Shown here in pieces: positions 6,109-38,335 of a stretch of DNA of 43,803 bases. The notes under the pieces were generated by a model. That model did not search any database, was not told where the DNA came from, and worked only from the letters and a program-made list of their open reading frames with translations. This stretch comes from Lachnospiraceae bacterium (lineage in GTDB: Bacteria > Bacillota > Clostridia > Lachnospirales > Lachnospiraceae), in contig JAILKH010000018.1 in NCBI GenBank assembly GCA_024693925.1, positions 1 to 43,803 on the forward strand, given 5' to 3'. Within the stretch, counting starts at the first letter, position 1. Every line of letters starts with the position of its first letter. The position numbers were made by a program, and so were the translations under genes.

Positions 6109-8106
6109 CTACAAAACAAATGAAATGATAAATACAGGATTCTGAGCCATAAACATATGATAACCGCCTTTTAACTCCAGATTATTTACGGCTATCTGAT
6201 TTATCATAATCTCTTTTGCTCCATACTCCTCCATCAACTCCGTACTTTCTTTAAGAGTCTCAAGACTTACCGAATTTATAACATAACGTATTCCTTTTTT
6301 TCTTAAATTAAGGTAAGCGATAATATCTTTAAGCTGTCCACCGCTTCCTCCGACAAAAACACAATCCGGCAAAGGAAGAGCTTCAAAGGTAAACGGAGCA
6401 ATTCCCTCAATGACTTTAACATTAGGAAGCTTTAAACGCTTAATGTTCTCCTCAATAAGTAAAACCGCCTCTTCCTTTCTTTCAAAGGTATACACCGATA
6501 CGGAAAGGTCGGTATATGCCGCTTCTATAGAAACACTACCCGTACCCCCTCCCACGTCATACATTACCTCTCCTTTCTTGAGTTTTAACCGTATGATACT
6601 TTCGTGACGGATACACTCTTTGGTCATCGGAATGCTGCCTCTTAAGAATTGCTCATCCCGAAGGACTCTGATAACCGGCTCTTTTAAATAAGCCTCATTT
6701 TTAAGAAAAAGAGTAAGGCTTCCCTCAGCGGAATAATCCACGGCTTCTTTTGCTTTTAATGATATTATTTCTTCGTTCTCATAAGAAAGATTACGACCCA
6801 CAGTCATATCACAATCTATCCCGTTGTCAAGCATCAGCCTGCTGAGCCTGCATATATCCGAAGCATCCGATACAAGAGTAAAAACTTTTCTGTTGTATCG
6901 GATCAGCTCCAGAAGATAATATAAGGCATTAGCATCATTCTTTCCATGAAGACTATAGATTACCGCATCCTCATAGCTCTCATGGCATCTTGCCGCAAGA
7001 ACGGATACAGCAGATATTCCCGGCAGAATGCTGATAACGGCATCGGGAAATTCTGAGGAAAGCTCGCTATAGGCCTTTTTGGCTCCGCTGCAGAAACCAC
7101 TGTCTCCGCTAAATAAAACCACTGCATTTACATATCCGGAATTATTCTTTAAGACCGGGATTATATCCTTTGCAAGATATTTATCATATTTATTATCATG
7201 CTTAATATTCTCAAGTAATCTTTTTGAACCAAAGATTACCTCGGCCTTATTGATTATCTGTTTTAATTCATTTGTATTAAGATCGGGATTTCCGGGACCG
7301 TATCCGCAAAGCCATATCTTTAATCCCGGTTTATAACCTATGCTGTCAAGAATATGATCATAAGCCTTATTCAAACTGATCCCCTTTTCAGCGGACGGAC
7401 GTTCTATAACATGAGCCATAATCCCAAGCTCCAAACAGGCCTGTATCTTTTCCTCATACCCGCCTGCCGCTCCGCTTTCCTTGGTTACAAGATGCTTAAT
7501 ATCATATTGTTTTATAATTGCCTTATTCAATTCACGGGAAAAAGGACCATGCATGGCAATTATATTACTTTGATCTATACCGGCCTCCCGGCAGGCAAGA
7601 AGACTCGTTTCCGTTGGAAGAACCCTTACAAAGCATCTTTTAAGAGTCTCTTCACTTAGCTTTGAGCAGAATAAAGAAAGCTCTTTGGAACCTGTAGTTA
7701 TAAGAATATTACCCTCAGAGCCGGCAAATGCAGCAGAACATTCCTCAACGGAAGGATAACTGTTTAACATTCCATCCGGCGTTTTATCCCGGTCACGTAC
7801 AACACGTATATATTCACTGCCGCAGATACCTGCGGCTGTTTTTATATTGTTTGTAACTTCCGTGGCATAAGGATGTGTCGCATCAATAATAATATCCTCC
7901 CATCCATAACCTTTGGCCTTCATAAATTCCGTCATTTCCAAAGCATCCATTCTTCCCGTATGAACACTCATATACGGATTACTTTCCATCATATCCCTGC
8001 CATAATCCGAAGCAACACAAACATCTGTATTTATCCCGCCATCACATAATTTTGATGCCAATATCCTTCCTTCCGTGGTACCGGAAAAGATCATTATCTT
8101 CTTCAC
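6109..8106 (-). CDS. cbiJ-cbiET: CbiJ-CbiE-CbiT triple fusion: precorrin-6A reductase / C5 and C15 methyltransferases
   Basis: Three consecutive corrin-ring enzymes are fused in 665 residues. Residues 1-255 are CbiJ/CobK (cobalt-precorrin-6A reductase), with FSGTTEGR at the start, IDATHPYA at 74-81 and the terminal ERP motif. Residues 263-460 are CbiE (C5 methyltransferase), with GYGPGNPD, FSGDSGF and LPGISA of the tetrapyrrole methylase fold. Residues 475-665 are CbiT (C15 methyltransferase and decarboxylase), with the SAM-binding DVGGGTGSVSIE and the family ending YHMFMAQNPV. CbiE-CbiT fusions are well known; the addition of CbiJ makes one chain catalyse reduction, two methylations and decarboxylation. 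The GTG start shares a GTGA overlap with the cbiH stop, implying translational coupling. The ABC order matches pathway order. Confidence 0.93.
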   Translation of the reverse strand: MKKIMIFSGTTEGRILASKLCDGGINTDVCVASDYGRDMMESNPYMSVHTGRMDALEMTEFMKAKGYGWEDIIIDATHPYATEVTNNIKTAAGICGSEYIRVVRDRDKTPDGMLNSYPSVEECSAAFAGSEGNILITTGSKELSLFCSKLSEETLKRCFVRVLPTETSLLACREAGIDQSNIIAMHGPFSRELNKAIIKQYDIKHLVTKESGAAGGYEEKIQACLELGIMAHVIERPSAEKGISLNKAYDHILDSIGYKPGLKIWLCGYGPGNPDLNTNELKQIINKAEVIFGSKRLLENIKHDNKYDKYLAKDIIPVLKNNSGYVNAVVLFSGDSGFCSGAKKAYSELSSEFPDAVISILPGISAVSVLAARCHESYEDAVIYSLHGKNDANALYYLLELIRYNRKVFTLVSDASDICRLSRLMLDNGIDCDMTVGRNLSYENEEIISLKAKEAVDYSAEGSLTLFLKNEAYLKEPVIRVLRDEQFLRGSIPMTKECIRHESIIRLKLKKGEVMYDVGGGTGSVSIEAAYTDLSVSVYTFERKEEAVLLIEENIKRLKLPNVKVIEGIAPFTFEALPLPDCVFVGGSGGQLKDIIAYLNLRKKGIRYVINSVSLETLKESTELMEEYGAKEIMINQIAVNNLELKGGYHMFMAQNPVFIISFVL

Positions 8107-8834
8107 TGTATTTTATATCCTCTCGGTGTTATAAGTTTACCGTTTTCAATCCGGGTATTGGTATTTCCTATAAATACCGTTACAAACATATCCACTTCTT
8201 TATATCTTAATTCCCCCAGTGTACATACTTCAACAGACCCTCCTTCTCTACCGATATTTCTTACATATCCGCAGCAAACATCCTTGGAAAGAACCGTCAT
8301 AAGTATTTCACAGGCCCATTTAAGATAATCCTTTCGTTTATGGGAGGCAGGATTATATATCGCAATACAGAAATCACCTTTGGCTGCACATACAAGTCTT
8401 TTTTCTATTATTTCCCGGGGGGTAAGAAGATCGCTTAAGCTTATTACACAAAAATCATGATTCAGCGGTGCCCCAAGAATCGCAGCGCCACTTAAAGCCG
8501 CAGATATTCCCGGAATGATCTCTATATCCTCAAAATTCTCCGCCCCGGCAATTTCAAGCATAGGCGAAGCCATTCCATATACTCCCGGATCTCCGCTGCA
8601 GATAAGAGCTACTTTATGTCCCTCCATTGCAAGTTCCAGGCATTCCTTACATCTTTCAACTTCCATCCTCATTCCGTTGGAAATCAGTTTCTTATCCTTA
8701 TACCTGTCCTTTATAAGCTCAATATAAGTGGAATATCCGATTATTATATCACACTCATTAAGGGCCTCCTTTGCCTGTACCGTCATCATGTTTTCATCTC
8801 CGGGCCCTATCCCTATCACATAGATCTTTCCCAT
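8103..8834 (-). CDS. cbiH: CbiH, cobalt-precorrin-3B C17-methyltransferase
   Basis: This 243-residue SAM-dependent tetrapyrrole methylase contracts the macrocycle and methylates C17 in the anaerobic B12 pathway. The N-terminal glycine motif IGIGPGDE, the SGDPGVYGMA loop and GISAALSGAAILGAPLNHDF are typical of CbiH/CobJ and separate it from CbiF and CbiL. The length is normal for stand-alone CbiH. It lies 15 bases after cbiG, and its stop overlaps the start of the cbiJ-E-T gene by four bases. The ring-contraction reaction is coupled in the pathway to the lactone product that CbiG, encoded next door, opens. Confidence 0.95.
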   Translation of the reverse strand: MGKIYVIGIGPGDENMMTVQAKEALNECDIIIGYSTYIELIKDRYKDKKLISNGMRMEVERCKECLELAMEGHKVALICSGDPGVYGMASPMLEIAGAENFEDIEIIPGISAALSGAAILGAPLNHDFCVISLSDLLTPREIIEKRLVCAAKGDFCIAIYNPASHKRKDYLKWACEILMTVLSKDVCCGYVRNIGREGGSVEVCTLGELRYKEVDMFVTVFIGNTNTRIENGKLITPRGYKIQ

Positions 8835-8849
8835 ATATCTGTACTTTCC

Positions 8850-9860
8850 TTATAATTTATTTACATATCCCGGATCGCGCCTTGCAACAGCCATAGTAAT
8901 ACCCGGTCCTGTGCTTTTCTTTATATAAAGTTTTCCTCCTGCTCCCGCACCGAGTACGGCTGCTCTTTCACATACATTATCAACACCCACAGTATTTTTT
9001 ACAAAATCGGAGGAAGTAAAATTCCCCTGCACCCGGGAAAGTATCCCTGCTTCAAAAGTCAGAAGGGGCAGTCTGTATTTAGAACAAAAATCACGTATAG
9101 CCGGTTCATTTTCTTTTATATCTATAGTACAGACCGCATAGATCTCTTCAACTTTGATATCATTCTTATTTAAAAAATCCATAAAACACTGTTCTGCGGT
9201 CTTTATATCCGTATCCCTTTTCATTCCGATCCCAAAAGTATATTTTCGGGGTGATAACAAAAGGGAATACTCCCGGTCCGTTTCATCGGCAATAATAATA
9301 TCCACAGGTTCTTTTGGGGGATAGTCCTTAATCGAAAGGGTAACCCTTTTACCTTCTATTGCTTTGGCGGAAACCTTTCCGATCCCTTCCCGGTTTCTTA
9401 TGGTAAGTCCCTTTTCTATTGCAAAAACATCCGCACTGAAGGCATCATGAACATCCGTTGATGTTGTTATCACGGGAATTGCATCTATCAACTCAGCAAC
9501 TGTTAAGGCAAGCTTATTAGCCATTCCCACATGCCCTGAAAGTATTGGGATCACAAACCTGCCGGAATCATCTATTACCAATACGGGAGAATCCTTTAAC
9601 TTATCCCTAACATAAGGAGCTATAAGCCTTACCGCTATCCCCACCGCTCCGGTAAAGATTATAGCACTACCGTTCTCAAACAATCCCTTTACAAAAGCAT
9701 CAAGGGACCCCCCTATCCTTTCAAATCCCGGAGAAACCTCCATAGAGTCTCCCGCAATATAAGCCTTACAGGGTTCTATTCCGGCTTTCATTGCCGCATT
9801 ATTTAATTTAAGTATCGTTTCCTGTCCGTACCGTGTGAAACAGATAGCTGCCTTATTCAT
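8850..9860 (-). CDS. cbiG: CbiG, cobalt-precorrin-5A hydrolase
   Basis: CbiG opens the delta-lactone left after ring contraction and releases the C2 fragment as acetaldehyde. The N-terminal region has IIFTGAVGIAVRLIAPYVRDK and the SGHVGMANKLA motif typical of CbiG. The C-terminal domain has VERI-type GMKRDT and the closing VARRDPGYVNK. At 336 residues it has the normal length. The frame extends to a TTG at 9881, but the ATG at 9860 has AAAGG seven bases upstream and gives the family-typical N-terminus, so I chose it. It sits between cbiD and cbiH in the operon. Confidence 0.94.
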   Translation of the reverse strand: MNKAAICFTRYGQETILKLNNAAMKAGIEPCKAYIAGDSMEVSPGFERIGGSLDAFVKGLFENGSAIIFTGAVGIAVRLIAPYVRDKLKDSPVLVIDDSGRFVIPILSGHVGMANKLALTVAELIDAIPVITTSTDVHDAFSADVFAIEKGLTIRNREGIGKVSAKAIEGKRVTLSIKDYPPKEPVDIIIADETDREYSLLLSPRKYTFGIGMKRDTDIKTAEQCFMDFLNKNDIKVEEIYAVCTIDIKENEPAIRDFCSKYRLPLLTFEAGILSRVQGNFTSSDFVKNTVGVDNVCERAAVLGAGAGGKLYIKKSTGPGITMAVARRDPGYVNKL

Positions 9861-9900
9861 AAATATACCTTTCTTAGCCAAACCCGTTATAGCAATTATA

Positions 9901-10992
9901 TTATGATCTTAATAACTCTTCAGCATTTTCCGTCTTACCCAGCAGACCCCATTGATTGGAATAGGTTATACATTCCACCTTAATAATACCCTTTGCCCGT
10001 TTATTCAGATAATAAGATATACGCTCCATTATATATTCCATGCACTTCCCGGCAATGCCTTCCTTATACAGGATTTCATAAGCTTCCTCCGTGGAAACAC
10101 AGTTAAGAACAGCTTTAAGGCTCTCCTTAGAACCTCCCGAACGGATCGCCGCCGCTGCCATAAGTTCCATACGGCAGTCACCTTCTGCGGAATGAGTATT
10201 CATGATCCCACCGGAAACCTTTATAAGCTTTCCTATGTGTCCTACAAGCAAAACCTTCTTAAAACCCGCTTCCGACGCCATATCTATTGCCGGACCTATA
10301 TAATTTGAACACTTAACAGCCTTTTCAAGATCATAACCATATTTTTCCTTCATAAAATTCATACCGTAATTGCCGGGAGATATAACGATATTTTCATATC
10401 CTTCCGCCTTTTTTTGACTAAGCTCAACCTTTATCGTTTCCAAGATTGCCCGGGTACTCATGGGCTCAACGATTCCCGTAGTTCCTATTATGGAAATACC
10501 GCCTAATATCCCCAGTCTTTTATTAAAAGTTTTCTCTGCAAGCTCCTCTCCTTCCGGTACATAAATGATCACATTTACGGAATCCCTGCAATCATAAAGC
10601 TCCATTACCTGCCTGACTTCTTTATCTATCATACTTCTCGGTACGGAATTTATGGCCGCATTCCCCACCGGCTGGTCAAGACCGGGACGGGTAACCCTGC
10701 CGACTCCCGGCCCGCCGTCAATATGGATATTTCCCATATTATCGCGGATAATCTCCACCCTTGCATAAATATATGCATTGTTTGTAATATCCGGATCATC
10801 CCCCGAATACTTCTTCACCCCACAGCTGCAGTTATCCTCGTTAACCTTTATATCCAGAATATCAGGAGTATAGGTAATACCTGCCGGAGTATCTATTTTT
10901 ATTGATTTTTTTATATTCCCGGACAGAAGCATATAAATTGCCGCCTTTGCGGCGGCCGCTGCACAACTGCCTGTGGTAAAACCATAATTCAT
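9901..10992 (-). CDS. cbiD: CbiD, cobalt-precorrin-5B C1-methyltransferase
   Basis: This 363-residue protein begins with the diagnostic MNYGFTTGSCAAAAAKAA and contains GGPGVGRVT and GTTGIVEPMS, all typical of CbiD. It methylates C1 of cobalt-precorrin-5B using SAM, a step specific to the anaerobic pathway. AAAGGAAG precedes the ATG. It lies 41 bases after cbiC and 40 before cbiG in the same direction. The length is in the normal range, and no defect is visible. Confidence 0.96.
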   Translation of the reverse strand: MNYGFTTGSCAAAAAKAAIYMLLSGNIKKSIKIDTPAGITYTPDILDIKVNEDNCSCGVKKYSGDDPDITNNAYIYARVEIIRDNMGNIHIDGGPGVGRVTRPGLDQPVGNAAINSVPRSMIDKEVRQVMELYDCRDSVNVIIYVPEGEELAEKTFNKRLGILGGISIIGTTGIVEPMSTRAILETIKVELSQKKAEGYENIVISPGNYGMNFMKEKYGYDLEKAVKCSNYIGPAIDMASEAGFKKVLLVGHIGKLIKVSGGIMNTHSAEGDCRMELMAAAAIRSGGSKESLKAVLNCVSTEEAYEILYKEGIAGKCMEYIMERISYYLNKRAKGIIKVECITYSNQWGLLGKTENAEELLRS

Positions 10993-11033: not shown

Positions 11034-11660
11034 TTAGTGCATCATATACAGGATCGCATTACAGATTGCCGCCGCAACATTACTTCCTCCCTTGCGCCCC
11101 CGGTTTATTATATACGGAATATCGGTATCTATAATAAGCTCCTTAGCTGCCACCACATTTACAAAACCTACGGGAACACCTATTATAAATGCCGGCCGGT
11201 AGCCCTTTAAATAATGTTCATATAAGGTTATTAATGCAGTAGGGGCATTTCCTATTACATAAATCACCGGTGTTCCAAGGTCTATTGCCTTCTCCATACT
11301 GACAGAAGCTCTTGTTACCTCAGAAAGCTTTGCCTTTATAGCCACCTCTTCCTCTGCCATAAAGCACTGAGCCTTACAGCCAAATTGTTTCAAAACACCC
11401 TTATTTATCCCTGCCAAAGCCATATTTGTATCTGTTATGATACACGCTCCGTTTCTTATAAGTGCTTTGAAATCCTCAATTGCATTTTCGGAAAAAACAA
11501 GTGTATCCGCATAATCAAAATCCGCGGTTGTATGAATACATCTCTTTATAACGGATGCGGTATCTCCCGAAAGTTTGATACCCTTCTCTTTTAATTCCTC
11601 CGTAAGTATCTCAAAGCTTCTTTTTTCAATTTCGGAGGGTTTAACATATTCAATATCCAT
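11034..11660 (-). CDS. cbiC: CbiC, cobalt-precorrin-8 methylmutase
   Basis: CbiC moves the methyl group from C11 to C12 to form cobyrinate. The 208-residue chain has the family sequence IEKRSFEI near the N-terminus, RCIHTTADFDYADT around the proposed catalytic histidine, TDTNMALAGI, and the C-terminal GRKGGSNVAAAICNA. It starts inside the end of cobD, with 11 bases of overlap, which suggests translational coupling. The length is normal. Confidence 0.96.
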   Translation of the reverse strand: MDIEYVKPSEIEKRSFEILTEELKEKGIKLSGDTASVIKRCIHTTADFDYADTLVFSENAIEDFKALIRNGACIITDTNMALAGINKGVLKQFGCKAQCFMAEEEVAIKAKLSEVTRASVSMEKAIDLGTPVIYVIGNAPTALITLYEHYLKGYRPAFIIGVPVGFVNVVAAKELIIDTDIPYIINRGRKGGSNVAAAICNAILYMMH

Positions 11661-12699
11661 TTATGATCTCACCTATATTCTTAACAAGTATTTCATTAGA
11701 AGCATGATCCTTTACCGCAATCCGGTAAAACCCTTTGCCAAGCCCCTTGTAATCGCTGCAATCTCTTATTAAGATCCCTTTACCCAAAAGCTCTGTATAC
11801 AGATCCTTATTATGTTTGATCAGCAGAAATGCCGTATCCGAATCAAAGACCCGGATCCCCAAGGCCTTAAGATGATCTGTTAAATATTTTCTTTCTTCAC
11901 GGATCTTTATACCTGTGGCTCTTGCATGATCTCCCAAAAGGATAACCTCTGCGCAGGCCTCCATGGTATTTGAAGCTATAGCCGAAATATTCCACTCCGG
12001 AAGAACCGTCTTTAAGTCATTTATTTCATCTTCCCCGGCTATTACATATCCCATCCGTAATCCGGGAAGGGAAAAAAACTTGGTATAGGAACGTATTATA
12101 AATAAATTCTTATATTTTTTTATAAGCTTTGCGGCATTATATCTGTCCATACCTATATCCGACATTAAAATAAAACTCTGGTCAAGTATGACTTTGGTAC
12201 CTGTTTTAAGGGTTTTATCAAGGATAGCCTCAAGGACAGCCTTATCAATCTGTCTGCCTGTGGGATTCCAGGGATCCGTCAAAAAAAGAAGATCCACAAA
12301 TTCATCGATATATCCCAGTATCTCTTCCGTCAGCCCAAACTCTTCCTCTTCCTTAAGCATATATTCCGATATCCCGCAGGCTTTACAGCTTCTTAAGGCA
12401 TGCCTGTAACCGCTAAAGCAGGGTTCGATAAGTAATGCTTTTTCAGGCTCACAGGCCTTAACCGTCGCCATAATCAGCTGAGAAGCTCCCGCACCCGCAT
12501 AGATTTCCGAGATACCGACCCCATCACTTTGAGCGATCCCGGAACGCAGGGATAACTGCAGGGGGTCCGGATAAAAACCGCATTTATCTATTCCTTCCCT
12601 GACCGCCTTCTCCACCGTGGGAGGAAGGGGCAGAGGATTAAGATTTACGGAAAAATCAATATTGACTTTATTTCTGTATATATCACCACCGTGTGCCAT
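11650..12699 (-). CDS. cobD: CobD, threonine-phosphate decarboxylase (class I/II aminotransferase fold)
   Basis: This PLP enzyme makes (R)-1-amino-2-propanol phosphate, the linker between the corrin ring and the nucleotide loop. It begins MAHGGDIYRN with DFSVNLNPL shortly after, the hallmark start of CobD proteins. DPWNPTGR is the NPTG element, and SYTKFFSLPGLRMGY holds the PLP-binding lysine and the phosphate-binding residues. At 349 residues it is the usual size. The neighbour cbiB encodes the enzyme that uses its product. The name follows the Salmonella cobD; in the Pseudomonas nomenclature this enzyme is called CobC and cobD means CbiB. Confidence 0.92.
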   Translation of the reverse strand: MAHGGDIYRNKVNIDFSVNLNPLPLPPTVEKAVREGIDKCGFYPDPLQLSLRSGIAQSDGVGISEIYAGAGASQLIMATVKACEPEKALLIEPCFSGYRHALRSCKACGISEYMLKEEEEFGLTEEILGYIDEFVDLLFLTDPWNPTGRQIDKAVLEAILDKTLKTGTKVILDQSFILMSDIGMDRYNAAKLIKKYKNLFIIRSYTKFFSLPGLRMGYVIAGEDEINDLKTVLPEWNISAIASNTMEACAEVILLGDHARATGIKIREERKYLTDHLKALGIRVFDSDTAFLLIKHNKDLYTELLGKGILIRDCSDYKGLGKGFYRIAVKDHASNEILVKNIGEIINGY

Positions 12700-12706
12700 A
12701 TATCCC

Positions 12707-13705
12707 CTATACGATAATTATCAGAATCACCATCGGAAGCATAAAAGACAACAGTAAAAGCAATTCCGATATAAACATAAGCAAATTGGAACGTTTGATA
12801 TCTTCAACATCAATATGCCGGATATCATTCCCGATAAAGGGTTTGTCAACAAGTATACCCTCGTAATAAGAAGGCCCTCCCAGTCTGATATTTAAGGCAC
12901 CGGCTACTGCACTTTCCGTCTGAGCGGAATTGGGACTTGTATGATTATATCTGTCTCTTCTCCATATACGGTATGCAGACCCTCCGTCATAGGCTTTGGA
13001 AAACAGCCGTAAAATATACGCTGATATTATTATATACATAGCACTGATCCTTGAGGGAACATAATTGGCAGCATCATCCAGCTTAGCGGCTGCCCTGCCA
13101 AAATACAGAAATTTTTCATTCTTATATCCCACCATGGAATCCATAGTATTTACGGCCTTATATAACATACCTGCCACCGGCCCTCCTATGATCAGAAAAA
13201 GGAGTGGGGCAAGTACACCATCCGAAGTGTTCTCGGCTACCGTTTCCACCCCTGCTCTTATTATACCATCTTCATTAAGCCTGCCGGTATCTCTTCCTAC
13301 GATCATGGAAAGATCATAACGCGCCTTTTCAATATCCCGGAGCTTTATAGCATTATATACCTTAATACTTTCCGTATACAAACTTCTTGCGGCAAGTATA
13401 TAGCAGGTCAGGATTGATTCCGCTATCATCCCCGGTATAATATTGATCTTATAACAGCCCGCAATTACCAGAGTGGTTGACATAACTACGAAGGTACAGA
13501 CAATAAACACCATAAGCCGGCCATACCGTAATTCCCGGCCTGTCTCTCCTTCCGCTTTTTTCTTATAATGTCCGGTAAGTAAGTTTATAAGCTTACCTAT
13601 TCCCGTAACAGGATGGGGAATATTATGGGGATCACCTGTCAGAAGATCCATAAGATAACCGGTCACCAATGCGATCATATGTAAAATCAAGTATTTTTTC
13701 ATCAT
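12707..13705 (-). CDS. cbiB: CbiB, adenosylcobinamide-phosphate synthase, integral membrane
   Basis: CbiB attaches aminopropanol phosphate to adenosylcobyric acid. The N-terminal GYLMDLLTGDP and the following PHPVTGIGKLI are diagnostic, as are AENTSDGVLAPL, the VNTMDSMVGYKNEKF region and the later SPNSAQTESAVAGAL and LGGPSYYEG. Several membrane helices are present. The chosen ATGATG start has a weak GGTAGTGG ahead of it and lies inside the cobU-cobC gene, giving a 74-base overlap. A shorter start at 13678 would still overlap and has no ribosome-binding site. The length is normal. Confidence 0.94.
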   Translation of the reverse strand: MMKKYLILHMIALVTGYLMDLLTGDPHNIPHPVTGIGKLINLLTGHYKKKAEGETGRELRYGRLMVFIVCTFVVMSTTLVIAGCYKINIIPGMIAESILTCYILAARSLYTESIKVYNAIKLRDIEKARYDLSMIVGRDTGRLNEDGIIRAGVETVAENTSDGVLAPLLFLIIGGPVAGMLYKAVNTMDSMVGYKNEKFLYFGRAAAKLDDAANYVPSRISAMYIIISAYILRLFSKAYDGGSAYRIWRRDRYNHTSPNSAQTESAVAGALNIRLGGPSYYEGILVDKPFIGNDIRHIDVEDIKRSNLLMFISELLLLLSFMLPMVILIIIV

Positions 13706-14798
13706 CCACTACCAGATCCAATATATATCCGTCCAGATTATCAACCCAAAAATCATAATAATCCTTACAAAGGAGGGAACTCATTATAGCCATAATATTT
13801 CCTCCATGACATACGATAAAAATATCATTTATATTTCTCTGTAATACTATATCACAAAATGCTTTCATACTGCGCTCAATAAAGGAAGTCCTGCTTTCTC
13901 CTCCGGGAATATCACAGTCTCCCTGTGTATTGAGAAAATGTATATAGGCCTCATTATCCTTTAACTCCTCATAGGTCTTCCCCTCAAATACACCAAAATC
14001 AATTTCCTTAAGACCGTCTGCTTTTTTTATATCACAATCCCCAAACAGAAACCCGGCCGTCTCACAGGCCCTTTTAAGAGGACTGCTTACGATCACCGAT
14101 TTGGTTAACATAAATCTGCCGATATTCTCTTTAAGCTTTTCCATACACTTAATATCCGAAGAATTAAGCGGACGGTCTGTTGCGCACCCCTCATATCGCT
14201 TCTCAAGATTTCCGTCGGTTTTTCCATGTCTTAGAAGAATACATCTTCCCGTTCTTATAACACGGTCCGCTTTATTTTTTAAATGCTCATTGATCATATT
14301 AAGAAGCCGGATATAAACAAGGGTCATATTATCCATATTAGGGGATTCTTCATATATACTGCTTACAACCAGAAGATCCTTTACCCTGTTATTTAAATAA
14401 TCTATGTCCTCCTCTATTTTCTCTGCCAGGGACTGCAGCAAAAAATGTATCCTGTCCGGGGCTTTTTCCTTTTTAAGCCTGTCCATCAGCTCCCTGTTAA
14501 GAGGATTTTCATACAGCTCATTTCCCGCAAGATTGGCTGCACATTCAAGAAGAAGTGTACTCTTATCCGGCTCCTCCATCAAGGACAGGGTTTTTTTAAT
14601 ATCATAAGGACATTCAAGGGTAATAAAACCTTTATCCTTTCTTAAAGCTCTGTGCCTTTGGACCCTGAGTTCCCCCTCTTTATCGTAAATCTTCATTGTC
14701 GCAAGATAGTACCTGTTTATACCCTGCGAATTAACGGCTTCTTTTTCCGCCTGTTTTGATTTTCCGCTGTTTGCTTTTCCGATTATAAATGTTAACAT
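13632..14798 (-). CDS. cobU-cobC: CobU-like kinase/guanylyltransferase fused to CobC-like alpha-ribazole phosphatase
   Basis: Residues 1-180 resemble CobU, which phosphorylates adenosylcobinamide and transfers GMP to it. The P-loop GKANSGKS and the conserved RVQRHRALR, with the histidine that carries GMP in CobU, are visible. The usual NEVG..VP segment is replaced by SSIYEESPNMDN, so this domain is divergent. Residues 182-388 are a histidine phosphatase with LLRHGKTDGN, SSPLKRACETA, a Glu in KEIDFGVFEG, and CHGGNI, fitting CobC/alpha-ribazole-5'-phosphate phosphatase. The fusion joins two nucleotide-loop enzymes. It is the first gene of the cob operon, with AAGG before the ATG. CobS and CobT, their usual companions, are not nearby. 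Confidence 0.85.
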   Translation of the reverse strand: MLTFIIGKANSGKSKQAEKEAVNSQGINRYYLATMKIYDKEGELRVQRHRALRKDKGFITLECPYDIKKTLSLMEEPDKSTLLLECAANLAGNELYENPLNRELMDRLKKEKAPDRIHFLLQSLAEKIEEDIDYLNNRVKDLLVVSSIYEESPNMDNMTLVYIRLLNMINEHLKNKADRVIRTGRCILLRHGKTDGNLEKRYEGCATDRPLNSSDIKCMEKLKENIGRFMLTKSVIVSSPLKRACETAGFLFGDCDIKKADGLKEIDFGVFEGKTYEELKDNEAYIHFLNTQGDCDIPGGESRTSFIERSMKAFCDIVLQRNINDIFIVCHGGNIMAIMSSLLCKDYYDFWVDNLDGYILDLVVDDEKILDFTYDRIGDRLSYGSSDR

Positions 14799-15707: not shown

Positions 15708-15724
15708 TTTTTCTCCTTTAAACA

Positions 15725-17389: not shown

Positions 17390-17573
17390 AATCCTCACAC
17401 CCTCCTGTCAGATACATACTCTTATATGGTATAACCCTGAAATCCATACAGAAATATCCCACACCCATTTCCGGATATCATCAAAGTCACAACCATACAA
17501 CACTCACACTATCCTATATCATATTAATATTAAATGATACATACTAAAAGTATATTTTTTAAATAACAAATTA

Positions 17574-19610: not shown

Positions 19611-19655
19611 TTATTATCTCTCCCTACCCATGTCAGATATGAAGCTTTACTTTAC

Positions 19656-22511: not shown

Positions 22512-24845
22512 CTATGGCTTTGAAAGACCGGCAATTTTATAAATAAGCTCCATGTCAAGGCTGTTCCTTAATGCTTCTTCAAGAATCGAATACTGATCCT
22601 CCTTATATACAGCCCTGTCCCTTACCGTATCCGTATTTACTTTTTTTCCGGCAGCTTCCGCCAAAAGCCTTACGATCCGTATCAATACTTCTTTACTGTC
22701 AAAAAAACCATGTATATAAGTACCATAGATATTCTCCCGGCAATATCCGCTTTTACCGGAAGTAAATTCCGTAAGAGGTTCATAGGTATCTGTCTGCCCC
22801 ATATGGATCTCATATCCTTTAATTTCAATTCCCTTAATAGAAGACAATATACCTGTAGCACCTGCTATACTTCCCCTGTATTCTCTTGTTACTTTATCCT
22901 TGTGTATAACCGTATCCACCGGAAGAAGTAAAAGACCTTCTTCAGCATTTACCTCTCCGTCAGCATTTTCTTCGATCCTTCGTCCCAGCATCTGATATCC
23001 GCCGCATATACCGAAAATAACCGTCCCTTCATAAGAAAGTGACTTTATGCGGTCATACAATCCCGAAGTTTTAAGCCATTTTAAATCAGAAATTGTATTC
23101 TTGGAACCGGGAATTATCAACATGTCAGGTTTACATAATTCAGAAGGCGAATCCACGTATCTGACGGTAACCTCCGGAAGCTGGGCAAAGACATCAAAAT
23201 CCGTAAAATTGGAAATATGAGGCAATCTGATAACCGCTATATTAAATTCTCCTTCTTCCTTCCTGCAGATCTTTTCGGAGAGGGAATCTTCATCATCTAT
23301 ATTCAGTTTCAAATACGGTACAACTCCCAGGACCTTTGATGCAGATCTTTCTTCAAGTATTTGTACCCCTTCATCAAAAAGCTTAAGGTCTCCTCTGAAT
23401 TTATTTACAATAAGTCCCTTTACCCTCCTTCTGTCCTCCTCTTCAAGCAGCTCAAGGGTACCTATAAGCTGAGCAAAAATACCTCCTCGATCAATATCTC
23501 CCACCAAAATAACAGAGGCATCAATAAGCCTGGCCAGACCCATATTTACAATATCATCTTTATTCAGATTAAGCTCTACCGGGGATCCGGCCCCCTCGAC
23601 TATTATAATATCAGAACTTTGAGCAAGCCTGTCAAAAGCCTCTCTGACAACCGGTATAAGCTGTTTTCTGTAACCGAAATATTCGGCTGCCGTCATATTA
23701 CCTATAGCCTTACCGTTTACTATGACCTGAGAGGTATGATCATCATTTGGCTTAAGCAAAATGGGATTCATACTTACATCGGGAGTACGTTTGGCACACT
23801 CGGCCTGTACCGCCTGGGCTCTTCCCATCTCGCCTCCCGCCTTTGTAATATAAGAATTAAGTGCCATATTCTGAGCCTTAAAAGGAGCAACCCGGTAACC
23901 GTCATTGGCAAATATGCGGCACAACCCTGCAGCTATAAGACTCTTTCCGGCATTGGACATGGTGCCCTGGATCATAAGCACCGGACAGCTTCCCTTTCCT
24001 TCTTCCTTATCCGGCTGATCTGTTTTGGGAGAAACAAAGGCTTTAAAGATATTATTAACATCCTCCGTATTATTTTCATCGGTAAACCATGGAACACTGC
24101 CTATAAATTCAAGAGAAGAATTCTCAATACCGTACAGGGAACGAATAAAACTTTCCCGGAAAACCTCTCGAACCGTACCCTCCTTTAATATCTTACCTTC
24201 TCCCAGTGCTATTACATGGTCTGATATATGCATTGCTATATCAAGCTCATGTATTGATAAAATAACCGCTATATTTTTTTCTCTGACAAGTTCCTTTAAC
24301 CTTGTAAGGATATCAAGCTTATATTTTATATCCAGGTATGAGGTCGGTTCATCAAGGATCAATACGGAAGGCTCCTGACATATGGCACGGGCAAGCATAA
24401 CTCTTTGCTTCTGGCCGTCACTTATACTCATAAACGGATTCTCTGAAATATCCTCCATCCCCATATTAGATATGGTCTCATCTATTATACTGTTATCCTC
24501 ATCCCTTAATCTTCCAAACATTCCGGTATAAGGATATCGTCCGGTGGCAATAACTTCCCTGCAGCTCATAAGCTCCGGCTTAACCGTCATCGTCATTACC
24601 ACGGATATTTCTCTTGCTATCTCTTCTGCTTTTAAACTGATAATACTTTTCCCGTTTAGATATATAATTCCGTTTCTTTCCTTATGAAGTCCCGCAAGAG
24701 TTCTCAATAAGGTTGATTTTCCGCTGCCGTTGGGACCGATAAGTGTCAGTATCTTCCCTGCAGTCACCGTAAGATCGATATTTCCGACTATATCTTTATC
24801 ATATCCTATTATGAGATTTTCCGTTTTAAGAATACTATCATTCAT
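22512..24845 (-). CDS. btuD-cobQ: Fusion of ABC transporter ATPase (BtuD/FecE type) and cobyric acid synthase CobQ/CbiP
   Basis: Residues 1-255 form a complete ABC ATPase: Walker A GPNGSGKST (37-45), the signature ISDGQKQR, Walker B LILDEP and the H-loop IHELD. These match the siderophore/B12 importer class. After a linker, residues 288-777 form a complete CobQ: QGTMSNAGKS, PFKAQNMALNS and the glutamine amidotransferase domain with Cys614 in GICGGYQ and His712 in YIHGFF. CobQ amidates four side chains of adenosylcobyrinic acid a,c-diamide. The start at 24845 has AAAGGTG at good spacing; the frame extends to a GTG at 24854. It is the last gene of the riboswitch operon. No frameshift or stop lies between the halves, so this is a true fusion. 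Confidence 0.92.
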   Translation of the reverse strand: MNDSILKTENLIIGYDKDIVGNIDLTVTAGKILTLIGPNGSGKSTLLRTLAGLHKERNGIIYLNGKSIISLKAEEIAREISVVMTMTVKPELMSCREVIATGRYPYTGMFGRLRDEDNSIIDETISNMGMEDISENPFMSISDGQKQRVMLARAICQEPSVLILDEPTSYLDIKYKLDILTRLKELVREKNIAVILSIHELDIAMHISDHVIALGEGKILKEGTVREVFRESFIRSLYGIENSSLEFIGSVPWFTDENNTEDVNNIFKAFVSPKTDQPDKEEGKGSCPVLMIQGTMSNAGKSLIAAGLCRIFANDGYRVAPFKAQNMALNSYITKAGGEMGRAQAVQAECAKRTPDVSMNPILLKPNDDHTSQVIVNGKAIGNMTAAEYFGYRKQLIPVVREAFDRLAQSSDIIIVEGAGSPVELNLNKDDIVNMGLARLIDASVILVGDIDRGGIFAQLIGTLELLEEEDRRRVKGLIVNKFRGDLKLFDEGVQILEERSASKVLGVVPYLKLNIDDEDSLSEKICRKEEGEFNIAVIRLPHISNFTDFDVFAQLPEVTVRYVDSPSELCKPDMLIIPGSKNTISDLKWLKTSGLYDRIKSLSYEGTVIFGICGGYQMLGRRIEENADGEVNAEEGLLLLPVDTVIHKDKVTREYRGSIAGATGILSSIKGIEIKGYEIHMGQTDTYEPLTEFTSGKSGYCRENIYGTYIHGFFDSKEVLIRIVRLLAEAAGKKVNTDTVRDRAVYKEDQYSILEEALRNSLDMELIYKIAGLSKP

Positions 24846-24912
24846 TAAAAGCACCTTTGCTTTCCGAAACCGGGATATATGGATTTATTTGTATGAAGAC
24901 ATGTAAACCGCC

Positions 24913-25923
24913 TCAGGATTGAGCCATATGTCTTTTGACCAACATCGATATAACTACGGGAACCAATAATACCGCCGTAACTGAGCTTATACTTACTTCT
25001 GTAGGTGCAAATACAGTCCGCGCTATACAATCACAAAAAAGCGTGATCAGCGCCCCCGTCATAAAACATCCCGGTATCATTACCCCCGGAGAGGAAGTTC
25101 CTGTCATACTTTTCAAAATATGAGGCACTGCAATTCCCACAAAAGATATGGGACCTGCATATGCAGTAACCGTAGCCGCCAGTATACTTGATAAAACAAT
25201 CAAAGCCGCTCTCAGAAGCTTAATATTTACTCCCATGTTTTTTGCATAGGTCTCCCCCAACCGGTAAGCACCTATGGGTTTTACCAGCATAAGGACCATG
25301 ATCAGACCAATGACAGTTATTATAACAATTTCTTTAACATCTTTTATATCTATTCCGGAAAAAGATCCCAGAGACCAGTTATGAAGATTGATTATGTTAG
25401 AGTCATCGGCAAAGGTCACAACAAGATCAGTTACAGCCGAACAGATATATCCCGTCATGATCCCGCATACAATAAGTATGCTCATATTTCTCACATAAAA
25501 TGAAACGATCAGCACAAAACCCATTGCCGCCATTGCACCTGCAAACGCCGAAAGGATCATCCCTGCCGAATTTATTGTTTTTCCCCTTTCCAGAAGAAAG
25601 ATCATGGTAAGTGCTACCGTAAGCTTTGCACCCGAAGATATTCCAAGTACAAAGGGACCGGCAATGGGATTATTAAAAAAAGTCTGAAGAAGATATCCCG
25701 ATAATGCAAGAGCCCCGCCCAGAAAAAAAGCTGCTATGGTCCGGGGAAGCCGTATATTGTAAATGATATTATAATTCATAAGATCATCCTTTTTCCCGGA
25801 TATCATATGGATCACTTCCCACGCCCCTATCCTTACACTGCCCGACATAATACTTACAAGCAACATAACGATCAGCAAAAATATTAAAAATATAAAGGTT
25901 AATTTACTTCTTTTATTTTGCAT
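24913..25923 (-). CDS. btuC: FecCD/BtuC-type permease, probable corrinoid or tetrapyrrole importer subunit
   Basis: This polytopic protein of about 336 residues has the FecCD family features NIRLPRTIAAFFLGGALALSG, NNPIAGPFVLGIS and, near the C-terminus, AGPISFVGIAVPHI. It would form the channel of a type II ABC importer with the ATPase domain of the downstream fusion. ATG at 25923 has GGAG five bases upstream; a GTG at 25929 would overlap the previous stop. The usual EhPxG coupling residues at the end are modified (FAPTEVSISSV). The B12 assignment rests on the operon (riboswitch, CobQ, chelatase); siderophore or haem transport would look alike. Confidence 0.85.
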   Translation of the reverse strand: MQNKRSKLTFIFLIFLLIVMLLVSIMSGSVRIGAWEVIHMISGKKDDLMNYNIIYNIRLPRTIAAFFLGGALALSGYLLQTFFNNPIAGPFVLGISSGAKLTVALTMIFLLERGKTINSAGMILSAFAGAMAAMGFVLIVSFYVRNMSILIVCGIMTGYICSAVTDLVVTFADDSNIINLHNWSLGSFSGIDIKDVKEIVIITVIGLIMVLMLVKPIGAYRLGETYAKNMGVNIKLLRAALIVLSSILAATVTAYAGPISFVGIAVPHILKSMTGTSSPGVMIPGCFMTGALITLFCDCIARTVFAPTEVSISSVTAVLLVPVVISMLVKRHMAQS

Positions 25924-25925
25924 TA

Positions 25926-27467
25926 TCACTCCAGTTTCTTTATATATGTCAGATTATCCGTTCCGCCTGTAAATATACTGTTAAGATCGGAGATAAATAC
26001 TGCCGTATCCCCCGGCTTCTGGAAAAATGACGGATCGATACAATAAACCCGATCCTCTTTTACCGCTTTAAAATCAGCAAAGAGCCCGTTAAGGGATAAG
26101 AGATCATTTACGGAATGAATTTCTCCCACCACGGTACTGTTATAAATTATGATATCGGCATCAATAGCCGCTGCATAGAAATCCTCCATCTGCATATTCA
26201 TGGAGGAAAGGGTATTTTCATCATCCGGAACATCTTCATTTATTATATAATTTCCCCCGGCCATGGATATCATTTTGGAAATATAGTCTCCCGGCTTTCG
26301 TACATTTATAAGCTTATTAGCCGTAACATTAAAAAAAGCAACCTTTAATCCGGTGTCCTGAGTTTTTCGTAACAGCGGGGCTATCCTGTCAAGCTGTTCC
26401 CTGTAATATTTATCCGCCGCCTCTTCCTTATCATAAAGGATACCATACAGTTTTATCCACTCAAGCCTTCCCAGAGGATGTTCTTCATAACTTGAGGTTT
26501 CAACCAGTACCGGGATACCCAATTCTTCCAGTTTTTCTTTTACTTCGGGATTATGATATATCATTGTATTTTCAATGGCCAGATCACAATCATTATTTAA
26601 TAACAGTTCATAATCCGGTGCCCGATATTTACCTGCATAAAGTATACTGCCCGATTCCATATATTCTCCGGCTTTTTCCACATACCAGTCTTCCGCCTTA
26701 AGGGAAGAAAATCTTATCATATCAAGACAATCCAGAGTGCTTATATGATCCATTACGGATGTGGAAACAAGATATGTGGCATCCAAAGGTTTTTTTAATA
26801 CCGTTACATTTCCGGGAACATCACCGGGTATATCCTTATCCCCGGGTACGATCAGATAACTACCCGAATTTTCAATATTAATAAGCCTGTATTCTCCGTA
26901 TTCCCTGACGGTAAACCGCGTGGCATACTCAAGCTCAAGACGGCCGCTTAAGGGATTACCGTCAATCTCCCCGGGAATATATATATCCCCGTCTTCTGCT
27001 TCATTAACATCGGTTTTTATATTATCCCCTGTTCCGGGTTTGTCTGCATTACCCCAGTATATTATATATTCTATCTCATGGGGAACACTCATAGCCACGG
27101 TATCGGCTGTAACAGCAAGGGGCTTACTCATATCCTTCACCGGAACCGTAAAAACAGAATTGCCCGATGTACTTTCATTTAAGTATTTTATTCCATCAAT
27201 GATCATATAATCATAATTCGGCGAACTCCATTCCAGACGGGCTTTAATACCGGTATCATCTTCCGTGATCGTTACGGGAGATTCTATATAAGCTTTTCCC
27301 GAACCACCCTCCATTGTTATGTCAACCATATAGGATACGATCTTACCGTTTTTATTATTCTCCCGCTGTAAAGAAGCAACCCCCTGCGAATCGCAGGAGG
27401 TTACCGCCAGCATAAATATCATCAATATAATTATTAAATAATTCTTTTTGATCTCTATTTTTTTCAT
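25926..27467 (-). CDS. Lipoprotein solute-binding protein (FecB/BtuF type) with extra N-terminal domain
   Basis: The signal peptide ends in AVTSC (Cys25), so this is a lipid-anchored binding protein. Residues 42-150 form a beta-rich extra domain with GGSGKAYIESP, WSSPNYDYMIIDG and FTVPV. Residues 225-505 form a helical-backbone periplasmic-binding domain of the FecB/BtuF class, with a long inter-lobe helix region and typical PDYELLLNNDCDLAIEN. It should deliver its ligand to the FecCD permease encoded next. The start has only a weak ribosome-binding site and follows the chelatase stop by 19 bases. The ligand could be a corrinoid, cobinamide or another tetrapyrrole; B12 control favours a corrinoid. 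Confidence 0.85.
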   Translation of the reverse strand: MKKIEIKKNYLIIILMIFMLAVTSCDSQGVASLQRENNKNGKIVSYMVDITMEGGSGKAYIESPVTITEDDTGIKARLEWSSPNYDYMIIDGIKYLNESTSGNSVFTVPVKDMSKPLAVTADTVAMSVPHEIEYIIYWGNADKPGTGDNIKTDVNEAEDGDIYIPGEIDGNPLSGRLELEYATRFTVREYGEYRLINIENSGSYLIVPGDKDIPGDVPGNVTVLKKPLDATYLVSTSVMDHISTLDCLDMIRFSSLKAEDWYVEKAGEYMESGSILYAGKYRAPDYELLLNNDCDLAIENTMIYHNPEVKEKLEELGIPVLVETSSYEEHPLGRLEWIKLYGILYDKEEAADKYYREQLDRIAPLLRKTQDTGLKVAFFNVTANKLINVRKPGDYISKMISMAGGNYIINEDVPDDENTLSSMNMQMEDFYAAAIDADIIIYNSTVVGEIHSVNDLLSLNGLFADFKAVKEDRVYCIDPSFFQKPGDTAVFISDLNSIFTGGTDNLTYIKKLE

Positions 27468-27486
27468 ATATCACACAAAATGATCA

Positions 27487-29220
27487 TTATTTCTCAGGAC
27501 TTGCAACACTTACTTTATGATCATACCATACACCCTTCTTACCGATGATCGCTACATCAAACTCGGTATCAAGTGCGGGAACAGGTATATCAAAGCCGCA
27601 AACAATCTCTTTTGTACCGTCCTCATAGGTAACCTCATCCTCTGTCGGAGAAAGAAGCTCTGCACCTTCTTTGGCAGCATCCTCTGCAAGACCTGCATAA
27701 AGATTCTTAATACCGTCTCCTGCCAAAGATACGTGTATAACCATTTCACCATCTTTAACGGTAAGAGTACCCATTCCGTTAAGTGCCTCGTTTACATGAA
27801 ACATGGAACTGTCGGTATCAAACTTTGCTTCATAGGTTCCGTCCTTAAGTTCTGTTTCTTTACCGGTTTCGTTTTCATCTTCCTTAACATCGGCGGCTTC
27901 ATTTTCACTTACTTCACTTTCGGCATCCGCATCTTTTACTTCATTATCGGAAACCCCATTACCGGATACCTCAGCCTCCTCCTCAGCAGAAGCCGTAAGC
28001 GGCTCCGTTTCAAAGGCAGCTGCTACATGCTCTGCATATAACTCTTCAATACCCTCAATCCTTCCAAGACCTTCGATCTGACATTCTATAGATTCAAATT
28101 TCCCTGATGCTTCCATCATACTCTTCCAGGAATCTTCATCCTCCCCTGCCATATCATTATTTGCATGATCTCCGGCAACTACCATAAGAGGTCGGAGTAT
28201 TATCTTCTTATAACCACTCTCAGATACTTTATCAATAATTGCTTCACAATCCGTACCCTCAGGCTCACCTTCCACAGTTCCTATAAATACATTATCATAT
28301 CCGAGTTCACTCATCTGGGTCTGCATCTGATCATAAGTAATACTTGCGGTATGAGAAGTTCCATGTCCCAAAAATACAAACGCGATCCCTTCTTCAACTG
28401 CAGCTTTTACATCATCATATCCCGCAATCCCGGCTGCTTCTTCCGTTACAAGGTTAGCAACTCTCTCTTTATCTTCATTTATAACGGTTGCATCTGTACC
28501 AACCTCACCCAATAAGGGTTCGGCTACCTTAACGCTTTCGAAATCGGAAACATATCCGCTAACGGTTTCCATCATCTCATCATACTCGGCTCCATGCATA
28601 AGATGTGTAGGCTGGATAACAAGATTCTTAACACCGTTTGCAACCGCACGGTCAAGAGCCTGTGTAACATTATCAATCTTCTCATCATCACGGGCCTGAA
28701 CATGATTTATTATTATCTGCGAAGTTAAAGCACGTCTTACGGACCAATCGGGATTTGCCTTGGCAATTGCCTTCTCAATACCTCCGATATCATTGGTTCT
28801 GCTGTCATTAAATGAGGTACCGAAGCTTATGACCAGTATTTCATTCTCCCCGATATCATCTGCATTTAAAGGATCATCCAGGGAAGCATCTCCCGTATCT
28901 CTTCCGAAATAATCCGGATCGGCAAATTCTCCTTCGACCAGTTCCTTCTGCTCATCGGTAAGAGCATCCCAGGCCTCTTTTGCAGCCTTACACTGAGCAT
29001 CGGTATCTTCCGTTCTTTCCTGAACATAGATCGCATCGATCAGCCCGGCCACATTATTTGCCGCATCAAGATCACTCATATCTTCTCCCTCAAGGTCTTC
29101 CTCTTCGTTCGTCTCAACCTCTTCCGTATTGTTAATATTAACATTCACGGTTCCGCAGCCTGCCATTACCGTTGCACTGACAGCTGCCAATAAAACTGCA
29201 TTTACTAATTTCTTTTTCAC
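27487..29220 (-). CDS. cbiK: Lipoprotein CbiK-type cobalt chelatase with accessory domains
   Basis: CbiK inserts cobalt into sirohydrochlorin, the committed step of anaerobic B12 synthesis. The chelatase domain spans about 125-405: FGTSFNDSR, PTHLMHG, LGHGT with His286, and VAGDHANNDMAGED with His352; these two match the catalytic histidines known in Salmonella CbiK. Unlike classical CbiK, a signal peptide ends in VMAGC (Cys22), placing the enzyme outside the membrane. Residues 52-98 are a small helical module of the type seen in clostridial surface proteins, and 460-577 are a beta-rich domain similar in outline to the N-terminal domain of the adjacent binding protein. GTG start with GGGAGGAG, seven bases away. 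First gene after the riboswitch. Confidence 0.88.
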   Translation of the reverse strand: MKKKLVNAVLLAAVSATVMAGCGTVNVNINNTEEVETNEEEDLEGEDMSDLDAANNVAGLIDAIYVQERTEDTDAQCKAAKEAWDALTDEQKELVEGEFADPDYFGRDTGDASLDDPLNADDIGENEILVISFGTSFNDSRTNDIGGIEKAIAKANPDWSVRRALTSQIIINHVQARDDEKIDNVTQALDRAVANGVKNLVIQPTHLMHGAEYDEMMETVSGYVSDFESVKVAEPLLGEVGTDATVINEDKERVANLVTEEAAGIAGYDDVKAAVEEGIAFVFLGHGTSHTASITYDQMQTQMSELGYDNVFIGTVEGEPEGTDCEAIIDKVSESGYKKIILRPLMVVAGDHANNDMAGEDEDSWKSMMEASGKFESIECQIEGLGRIEGIEELYAEHVAAAFETEPLTASAEEEAEVSGNGVSDNEVKDADAESEVSENEAADVKEDENETGKETELKDGTYEAKFDTDSSMFHVNEALNGMGTLTVKDGEMVIHVSLAGDGIKNLYAGLAEDAAKEGAELLSPTEDEVTYEDGTKEIVCGFDIPVPALDTEFDVAIIGKKGVWYDHKVSVASPEK

Positions 29221-29249
29221 AATAATTCTCCTCCCACTTGGATTATTGT
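29219..29249 (-). promoter_or_regulatory. Inverted repeat enclosing the cbiK ribosome-binding site
   Basis: ACAATAAT and ATTATTGT form a perfect 8-bp stem on the transcript. The GGGAGGAG ribosome-binding site lies in the loop, and the first two bases of the GTG start close the stem. It may lower translation initiation or couple it to upstream folding. The adjacent palindrome GTATCTTATAAGATAC at 29248-29263 may stack on it. Confidence 0.45.
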
Positions 29250-29347
29250 ATCTTATAAGATACTTACAGGCACTATTGATATTAAACGGCGAAGGGATAA
29301 GTCGTACCAAAAAACAGAAAACCATGACCACAGCCTGTTTGTATCAT

Positions 29348-37582: not shown

Positions 37583-38335
37583 TTATGACCTGTCTTTTCC
37601 GGCCCTGTAACCGGTTGTAAAATTCTTATCATACAGCTTTGAATATTCATATTCATGATCCAGAACATCACCTACGATAATAAGGGCAGTCTTAAATATT
37701 CCCGCACTCTCCATATCCTCCTTAAGACTACCCACTGTCGTTCTTATAATCTGCTCCTCCGGCCAGGAAGCTTTATATACCACCGCAACCGCGGTATCTT
37801 TACTGTATCCGCCCTCCTGTAATTCATCACTTACCTTTCCTGCCATACCCGAAGACAGAAATAAAACCAGAGTCGCATTATGGGCCGCCATAGAACTTAA
37901 TTCCTGACCCTTCGGTACTTTGGTCCTTCCCTCCGCCCTTGTTATTATCACGCTTTGAGATAAACCCGGAAGAGTATATTCCGCTTTTAAAGCCGCCGCA
38001 GCCGCAAACATGGAGCTTACTCCGGGAACCACATCATATTCAATTCCCTCCTTGTCAAGGATATCCATTTGTTCCTTAACGGCTCCGAAAAGAGAAGGAT
38101 CACCTGTATGTAACCTGATTACCTCACCCTTACTGTTTTTAATTACTTCAATAACCTCTTCAAGATCCATATAAGCACTGTTGTAAATCCCGCAACCGGG
38201 CTTTACATATTCAAGCAGTGCAGGATTCACCAAAGATCCTGCATAGATCACAACATCCGCTTTCTTCAATAATTCCATTCCCCGGACGGTAATAAGATCC
38301 ACCGCTCCCGGGCCGGCTCCTACAAAATGTACCAT
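37583..38335 (-). CDS. cbiF: CbiF, cobalt-precorrin-4 C11-methyltransferase
   Basis: This SAM-dependent methylase acts between CbiH and CbiG in the anaerobic pathway. VHFVGAGPGAVDLITVRG at the N-terminus, AGSLVNPALL, RLHTGDPSLFGA and PGVSSMFAAAAAL are typical of CbiF/CobM. The 250-residue length is normal. It sits far from both B12 operons, 3 bases after a Nudix gene and 44 before a HAD phosphatase, so its expression may be tied to housekeeping genes rather than to the riboswitch. Confidence 0.95.
   Translation of the reverse strand: MVHFVGAGPGAVDLITVRGMELLKKADVVIYAGSLVNPALLEYVKPGCGIYNSAYMDLEEVIEVIKNSKGEVIRLHTGDPSLFGAVKEQMDILDKEGIEYDVVPGVSSMFAAAAALKAEYTLPGLSQSVIITRAEGRTKVPKGQELSSMAAHNATLVLFLSSGMAGKVSDELQEGGYSKDTAVAVVYKASWPEEQIIRTTVGSLKEDMESAGIFKTALIIVGDVLDHEYEYSKLYDKNFTTGYRAGKDRS

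Follow-up and report, generated by a model that had tools for sequence, protein, structure and literature searches.

An ABC importer ATPase fused to cobyric acid synthase in a B12 gene cluster of Lachnospiraceae

Introduction

What could the ATPase of an importer be doing in one protein with an enzyme of B12 synthesis? The question is raised by a gene of a gut-type Lachnospiraceae bacterium, found in a stretch of 43,803 nucleotides (contig JAILKH010000018.1) that we call the window. The gene encodes the motor of a transporter and a soluble biosynthetic enzyme as one polypeptide, an unusual architecture that is conserved here. B12 gene clusters are described as varying in their transporters and in their fused genes (PMC8123684, in the part of its text available). 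As far as our searches reach, the fusion of an ABC ATPase with CobQ (ABC::CobQ) is undescribed so far. In fact, no title or abstract found in the open-licence literature describes ABC::CobQ or ABC::CbiD, and the available parts of PMC3541065, PMC8123684, PMC7689651, PMC8749415 and PMC4063343 hold no description of ABC::CobQ.

Results

One frame, two domains

The gene is an intact ORF (Table 1), in line with the original prediction, which had described an ABC ATPase and CobQ in one 777-residue frame. The frame could also be read from a GTG at 24854, giving 780 residues. The ATG at 24845 is the better start because AAGGTG lies six bases upstream of it, and the start first proposed was thus well chosen.

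Both domains were predicted to be complete, with their catalytic motifs, and the Pfam and NCBIfam matches agree. In the N-terminal half, ABC_tran (PF00005) matches residues 25-172 with 108.8 bits (cut-off 25). In the C-terminal half, CbiA (PF01656) matches residues 293-516 with 77.5 bits (cut-off 25.4) and GATase_3 (PF07685) residues 538-722 with 172.6 bits (cut-off 27). This half exceeds the CobQ/CbiP equivalog cut-off over its full length: cobQ (TIGR00313) aligns residues 293-770 with model positions 1-476 of 477 (489.2 versus a cut-off of 309.9), and NF001989 covers residues 292-775 (613.8 versus 273). The fusion shares with these CobQ/CbiP families the full-length match, the Cys and His motifs and the setting in a cob/cbi cluster but, unlike a standard CobQ/CbiP, it starts with an ABC ATPase. 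It is the sole CobQ found in the window's assembly, where 50 of the 51 matches, all except the fusion, cover the ABC part only.

The ABC half carries a Walker A, an SDGQ signature, a Walker B (LDEP) and an H-loop (SIHE). The CobQ half carries GTMSNAGKS, which we take to be the P-loop of the synthetase domain, together with GICGG and YIHG, whose Cys and His are presumably the catalytic residues of the glutaminase domain. With BtuD/FecE-type ATPases (NCBIfam PRK11231, PRK09536) the window's ATPase shares all ATPase motifs and the FecCD and binding-protein neighbours. Unlike these equivalogs, it stays below their cut-offs and ends in a CobQ domain. Its best NCBIfam ATPase model is FecE (197.3, with a cut-off of 375 that is not reached), and the corrinoid ATPase model PRK09536 likewise falls short (171.9 versus 537).

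A structure model of the fusion, built with 6 sequences, is of low confidence (mean pLDDT 66, pTM 0.53) and uninformative on domain packing. It matches the ATPases of the heme importers HmuUV and BhuUV and of BtuCD (4fi3, 1l7v). The 50 rows listed from a PDB search with this model are ABC-type entries by title, none naming a CobQ, and the best 60 of 506 chains in a sequence search of the PDB were ABC chains only.

An importer operon within a B12 cluster

Upstream of the fusion, on the same strand, lie the permease, the substrate-binding lipoprotein, the CbiK lipoprotein and a cobalamin riboswitch, in that order (Table 1). The B12 riboswitch of the original prediction is thus borne out. Its importer is the only strong one of its kind in the assembly: the sole strong FecCD match is the operon permease, and the second reaches 26.6 bits for a cut-off of 26.5. 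Two exported stretches have no Pfam match even at E 5, the N-terminal 230 residues of the binding protein and the C-terminal 120 residues of the CbiK lipoprotein. Promoter-like sites (17 versus 22.3) and terminator-like sites (6 versus 5.7) are no commoner than in shuffles.

Table 1. Features of the importer operon and of the cob/cbi genes in the window.
Feature	Position	Strand	Remarks
CbiJ::CbiE::CbiT triple fusion	6109..8106	minus	665 aa
CbiH	8103..8834	minus	
CbiG	8850..9881	minus	best models cobalt-precorrin 5A hydrolase, below cut-offs
CbiD	9901..10992	minus	separate gene in the window
CbiC	11034..11660	minus	best models precorrin-8X methylmutase, below cut-offs
CobD-like	11650..12699	minus	best model threonine-phosphate decarboxylase CobD, below cut-off
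CbiB	12707..13705	minus	user of the CobQ product
CobU-like + alpha-ribazole phosphatase CobC fusion	13632..14798	minus	both below curated cut-offs; part of the split cluster
ABC ATPase::CobQ fusion gene	22512..24845	minus	single 777-codon frame from ATG
CobQ/CbiP domain	22530..23981	minus	aa 292-775
Linker of the fusion protein	23982..24119	minus	between ABC and CobQ domains
ABC ATPase domain	24120..24833	minus	aa 8-245 in 780 numbering
FecCD (BtuC-type) permease	24913..25929	minus	Pfam
Substrate-binding lipoprotein	25926..27467	minus	Peripla_BP_2 at aa 235-479
CbiK-domain lipoprotein	27487..29331	minus	lipobox VMAGC, CbiK at aa 165-440; start codon uncertain
Cobalamin riboswitch RF00174	29454..29691	minus	65.8 versus gathering 31.5
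CbiF	37583..38335	minus	upstream of the importer operon

The fusion had also been placed at the end of this operon. This holds locally, but in relatives the importer genes run straight on into the late cob/cbi genes. In the window, an unrelated gene block (14862-22404; presumably lipoproteins, a clostripain-like protein and a sensor kinase with its response regulator) splits the importer half from the late cob/cbi half. The riboswitch recurs in 6 of the 7 relatives' loci scanned; none is seen in L151, where the stretch stops short of the CbiK gene.

By the genes of Table 1, several of which bear labels from best models below their curated cut-offs, the genome has most of an anaerobic de novo B12 pathway in the same window. 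It also encodes, on another contig (G000:C2:35454-35918), a further GATase_3 protein that fits CbiA. With this CbiA-like protein and a de novo pathway of its own, the cell can supply CobQ internally.

What does the importer carry? From the riboswitch control, which is suggestive, and the surrounding cob/cbi genes, its cargo may be a corrinoid or something that supplies one, and the importer is probably of the vitamin-B12 type. Importer ATPases that stand apart from CobQ in L131, L132, L136, L137, L141 and L142 are 368-415 residues long by their frames, since about 110 residues are added at the C-terminus. The extension of the L141 ATPase, the one examined, aligns to the 402-residue PRK09536 up to position 348, a suggestive likeness to a corrinoid ATPase model. 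E. coli BtuD is not known to have such an extension.

The fusion recurs in related genomes and its motifs are kept

A single isolate with a fusion of its own can be ruled out. A match at 1e-60 is found in 34 of 37 genus genomes (all except G008, G023 and G030), and 19 of the 37 have ABC ATPase and CobQ in a single ORF (G000, G002, G004, G005, G006, G009, G011, G012, G013, G015, G016, G020, G021, G024, G025, G026, G031, G034 and G036). Sixteen of these copies are intact; the others are cut by a contig end (G005, G026) or have an aberrant ABC part (G031). Contig ends also cut the gene in G018, G033 and G035, which makes them unscorable for the fusion. The two genes are adjacent yet separate in five genomes (G010, G014, G028, G029, G032), and CobQ has no adjoining ATPase in the flanks seen in G001, G007, G017, G019 and G027.

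Across the family, 234 of 397 genomes match at 1e-100. At least 12 of the 397, from 11 genera and including G000 and G002, have both domains mostly matched in a single frame, a count among the matches listed that weak fused matches may escape. In each of the ten fused genomes from other genera, the fusion proved to be a single ORF. At 1e-150, a threshold that would miss divergent fusions, the class sample has matches in 41 of 391 genomes, and only in the window's genome does the match extend into the ABC part. A contig scan, in which 80 loci were kept of 106 confirmed, found five fused in a single frame (L009-L013); judging by ORF length and identity, L009-L012 seem to be G020, G009, G002 and G004 again. 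In total, about 30 genomes carry the fusion.

Two assemblies each hold two differing fused or partly fused copies (G009 on C181 and C182, G026 on C30 and C48), perhaps from mixed strains.

We counted motifs over 29 aligned fused rows and conserved columns over the 27 intact ones. The Walker B LDEP, the H-loop, the CobQ P-loop, the Cys and the His are kept in all 29 rows. Walker A is kept in 28, the exception (L110) being cut by a contig end; SDGQ is kept in 27 and missing from L110 and L104. A DIDRGG stretch is kept in 28 rows and departs in L096, which suggests that not every fused copy need be active. L104 (1438-3642, from G031) has an N-terminal ABC part unlike the others, and its ABC half is possibly a chimera or a misassembly.

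At 90%, 60 of 238 columns are conserved in the ABC domain and 164 of 484 in the CobQ domain. None of the 36 columns of the linker (residues 255-290) is! In the 29 fused rows, anything from 18 to 49 residues separates aligned window positions 254 and 295, and the linker core has a pLDDT of about 23-25 in the low-confidence model.

A probable route from coupled neighbors to a single protein

How could the two genes have merged? Loci in which they are still separate offer a view. In L165 and L166, an ATG of the CobQ frame shares an ATGA with the ATPase stop. The overlaps are longer in L019, L167 and L237, and in L141 a single stop codon stands between the two frames. Such split, overlapping pairs likely show the precursor of the fusion.

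The history of the fusion is not a tidy one, and we set aside a single clean origin on the tree tests. The fused proteins were mapped on CobQ and ABC trees, both made by a quick method and with several weak deep branches. The CobQ tree has 84 rows, L105 and L108 having been dropped as contig-end cuts and L107 recoded as fused, given that a contig of the same genome (L193, maybe of a different strain) has ABC and CobQ in one frame. On this tree, the fusion label needs 4 changes; the 30 fused rows as a single clade give p = 0.041, or p = 0.148 without L013. On the ABC tree (51 rows), a strictly single group of fused rows is rejected whether L013 is included (p = 3.7e-74) or left out (p = 4.3e-5). 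Stronger rejections (p = 3.7e-86 and 2.2e-4) were discounted because three contig-cut rows had been scored as separate. A fused clade that also takes in the split rows L165 and L166 is not rejected (p = 0.17), nor is that clade enlarged by three ABC::CbiD rows (p = 0.066), which themselves form one clade (96*) apart from the main ABC::CobQ groups. These results are compatible with one main origin of ABC::CobQ, at least two later splits (G014, G032) and a separate case, L013. The same trees would also allow two main origins, which is possible, or a close kinship of the CbiD-fused with the CobQ-fused ATPases, which is possible too.

A cluster prone to fusion

CobQ is not the only partner of the importer ATPase. 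In three loci (L150 5411-7462, L151 5772-8558, L152 6712-8751), the same importer operon as in the window has a related ATPase fused to CbiD instead, and CbiD is the gene next after the ATPase there. G003 and G022 have ABC::CbiD with CobQ elsewhere; G009, with a listed contamination of 5%, has ABC::CbiD and ABC::CobQ on different contigs.

The enzymes also fuse to one another: CobQ::CbiC (L181 1657-3801, L184 1990-4143), CbiC::CbiD (L188 184-2103) and CobD::CbiC (L159 3116-4885). In L032 (5941-7995), CobQ has an extra C-terminal domain, which we take to be CobA/BtuR-like. By the look of these genes, fusion is a habit of the cob/cbi cluster. Like NCBIfam's bifunctional CobBC, CbiJ::E::T, CobQ::CbiC and CobD::CbiC, the fusion of the window merges neighbors. 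What sets it apart from these corrin pathway fusions is a half that belongs to a transporter instead of being a pathway enzyme. In the loci seen, the ATPase is fused to whichever gene comes next. This dependence on gene order speaks against any mechanism that would involve CobQ and imported corrinoid in particular.

Discussion

Probably, then, though with room for doubt, the fusion is a working bifunctional protein born by the merger of translationally coupled neighbors in the cob/cbi cluster. Its N-terminal half would be the ATPase of a riboswitch-controlled, BtuCDF-like importer, and its C-terminal half the CobQ/CbiP cobyric acid synthase of the genome's own anaerobic B12 pathway. The two genes, adjacent and coupled, would have merged in a cluster where gene mergers are frequent. 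Both halves may be active, to judge from their motifs. With the ATPase docked on the FecCD permease, a flexible linker would hold CobQ at the membrane, and the two activities would be produced 1:1. Importers of the BtuCDF class are built with two ATPases, so that two CobQ units would sit on each importer, as had been suggested. The fusion can be explained without the importer handing substrate to CobQ. There are hints of some benefit beyond a neutral merger, because the fusion persists across divergence and because the ATPase gained an enzyme partner repeatedly.

Could that benefit lie further down the pathway? CbiB and CobS are reported to be integral membrane proteins and have been proposed to anchor a multienzyme complex (PMC8749415, in its available part), and the fusion may have been selected to hold CobQ beside these two enzymes, which process adenosylcobyric acid further. 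In fact, CbiB comes directly after the fusion in L009 and L010, and after a separate ABC-CobQ pair in Alkaliphilus and Natronincola (L014, L036, L039). Yet in the remaining fused loci with annotated downstream genes, several genes stand between the fusion and CbiB, ABC::CbiD would put a mid-pathway enzyme on the importer, and CobQ::CbiC has no membrane part. We regard such a membrane assembly line as unlikely.

Another explanation turns on the CbiK lipoprotein. If the importer supplied cobalt or a tetrapyrrole to the de novo pathway with the help of an exported CbiK, this could be why its ATPase is bound to corrin enzymes, CobQ or CbiD. The only CbiK match in the window's genome is, in fact, a predicted exported lipoprotein with catalytic-type motifs (PF06180, 230.9 versus 26.2; NF047852 below its cut-off, 181.7 versus 400). 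Desulfovibrio vulgaris has a CbiK in its periplasm (PMC4063343, in the part available). Within the genus, 31 of 37 genomes carry CbiK, at 33 places in all. Among 30 of these (L198-L227), a lipobox is recognized by pattern in 27 and by eye in L204, while two are cut at contig starts; 26 have all three catalytic-type motifs, the second being absent as written in L198-L201. The lipobox is also present in all 10 CbiK loci examined from other genera (L153-L162). The remaining places are G009:C181 (inside L152), G030:C29 (cut) and G007:C146.

Other routes for cobalt look scarce in these genomes. Of the 37 genus genomes, CbiM was found only in G028, which is not the window's; NicO exceeds its cut-off in none of the 37 (with two weak matches), and all 27 CbiX rows among the matches listed sit inside CbiK genes. 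The Met8-type family exceeds its cut-off in all 37, strongly in G007 and G025 only; no other match exceeds 37.4 bits, and we take these weak ones, most of which lie in longer frames, for other proteins. A search of the window's draft assembly for CbiK, CbiX, CbiM, NicO and Met8-type proteins thus found no obvious cytoplasmic chelatase or cobalt importer.

Against this supply route, sirohydrochlorin made in the cytoplasm would have to exit the cell, the search for cobalt importers covered CbiM and NicO in incomplete drafts, and a corrinoid importer needs no such story. Moreover, G007 also has a second CbiK (G007:C146, L238 580-1692), in a frame of 371 residues with 30% identity. Its CbiK part begins with a methionine and lacks a signal, and the frame adjoins the strong Met8-type match. 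At least this one species would thus have a cytoplasmic-looking chelatase as well. We consider the supply explanation very improbable.

The original prediction had raised the possibility of a more direct link, in which the permease would hand imported corrinoid precursors over to its tethered CobQ for amidation. The physical linkage of ATPase and CobQ, the riboswitch control and the single strong FecCD system of the genome would all suit such a channel. But such a channel would call for a cobyrinic acid not yet fully amidated as the precursor, the linker is long and unconserved, and the partner is CbiD, a ring-stage methyltransferase, in three related loci. With de novo genes beside the fusion and a CbiA-like protein in the genome as well, we find this channeling without specific support and very improbable.

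An assembly artefact or a decaying gene can be dismissed for the group as a whole, and is very improbable for the copy in the window: many of the genomes are fragmented drafts, the carriers in the contig scan are mostly metagenome assemblies and L104 has its odd ABC part, but the intact frame in the window and in many independent assemblies, among them G339 with 2 contigs and 99% completeness, rules out a frameshift or assembly error, and the kept motifs rule out a pseudogene.

What would a bifunctional protein born of merged neighbors mean for B12 synthesis in these bacteria? At its boldest, B12 synthesis would be organized on the importer itself, with the exported CbiK handling cobalt or a cobalt-tetrapyrrole on the outside, FecCD importing it and the ATPase carrying CobQ in one branch and CbiD in the other. 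We hold this to be a long shot; if true, uptake and ring completion would form one membrane unit. In any case, the fusion is relevant to the membrane-anchored complex that has been proposed for the late steps of B12 synthesis. The CobQ-fused, CbiD-fused and split overlapping versions form a natural matched set, suited to testing membrane tethering against B12 flux. If both halves work, the fusion would be a natural building block, ready for use, that delivers importer motor and enzyme in a 1:1 ratio.
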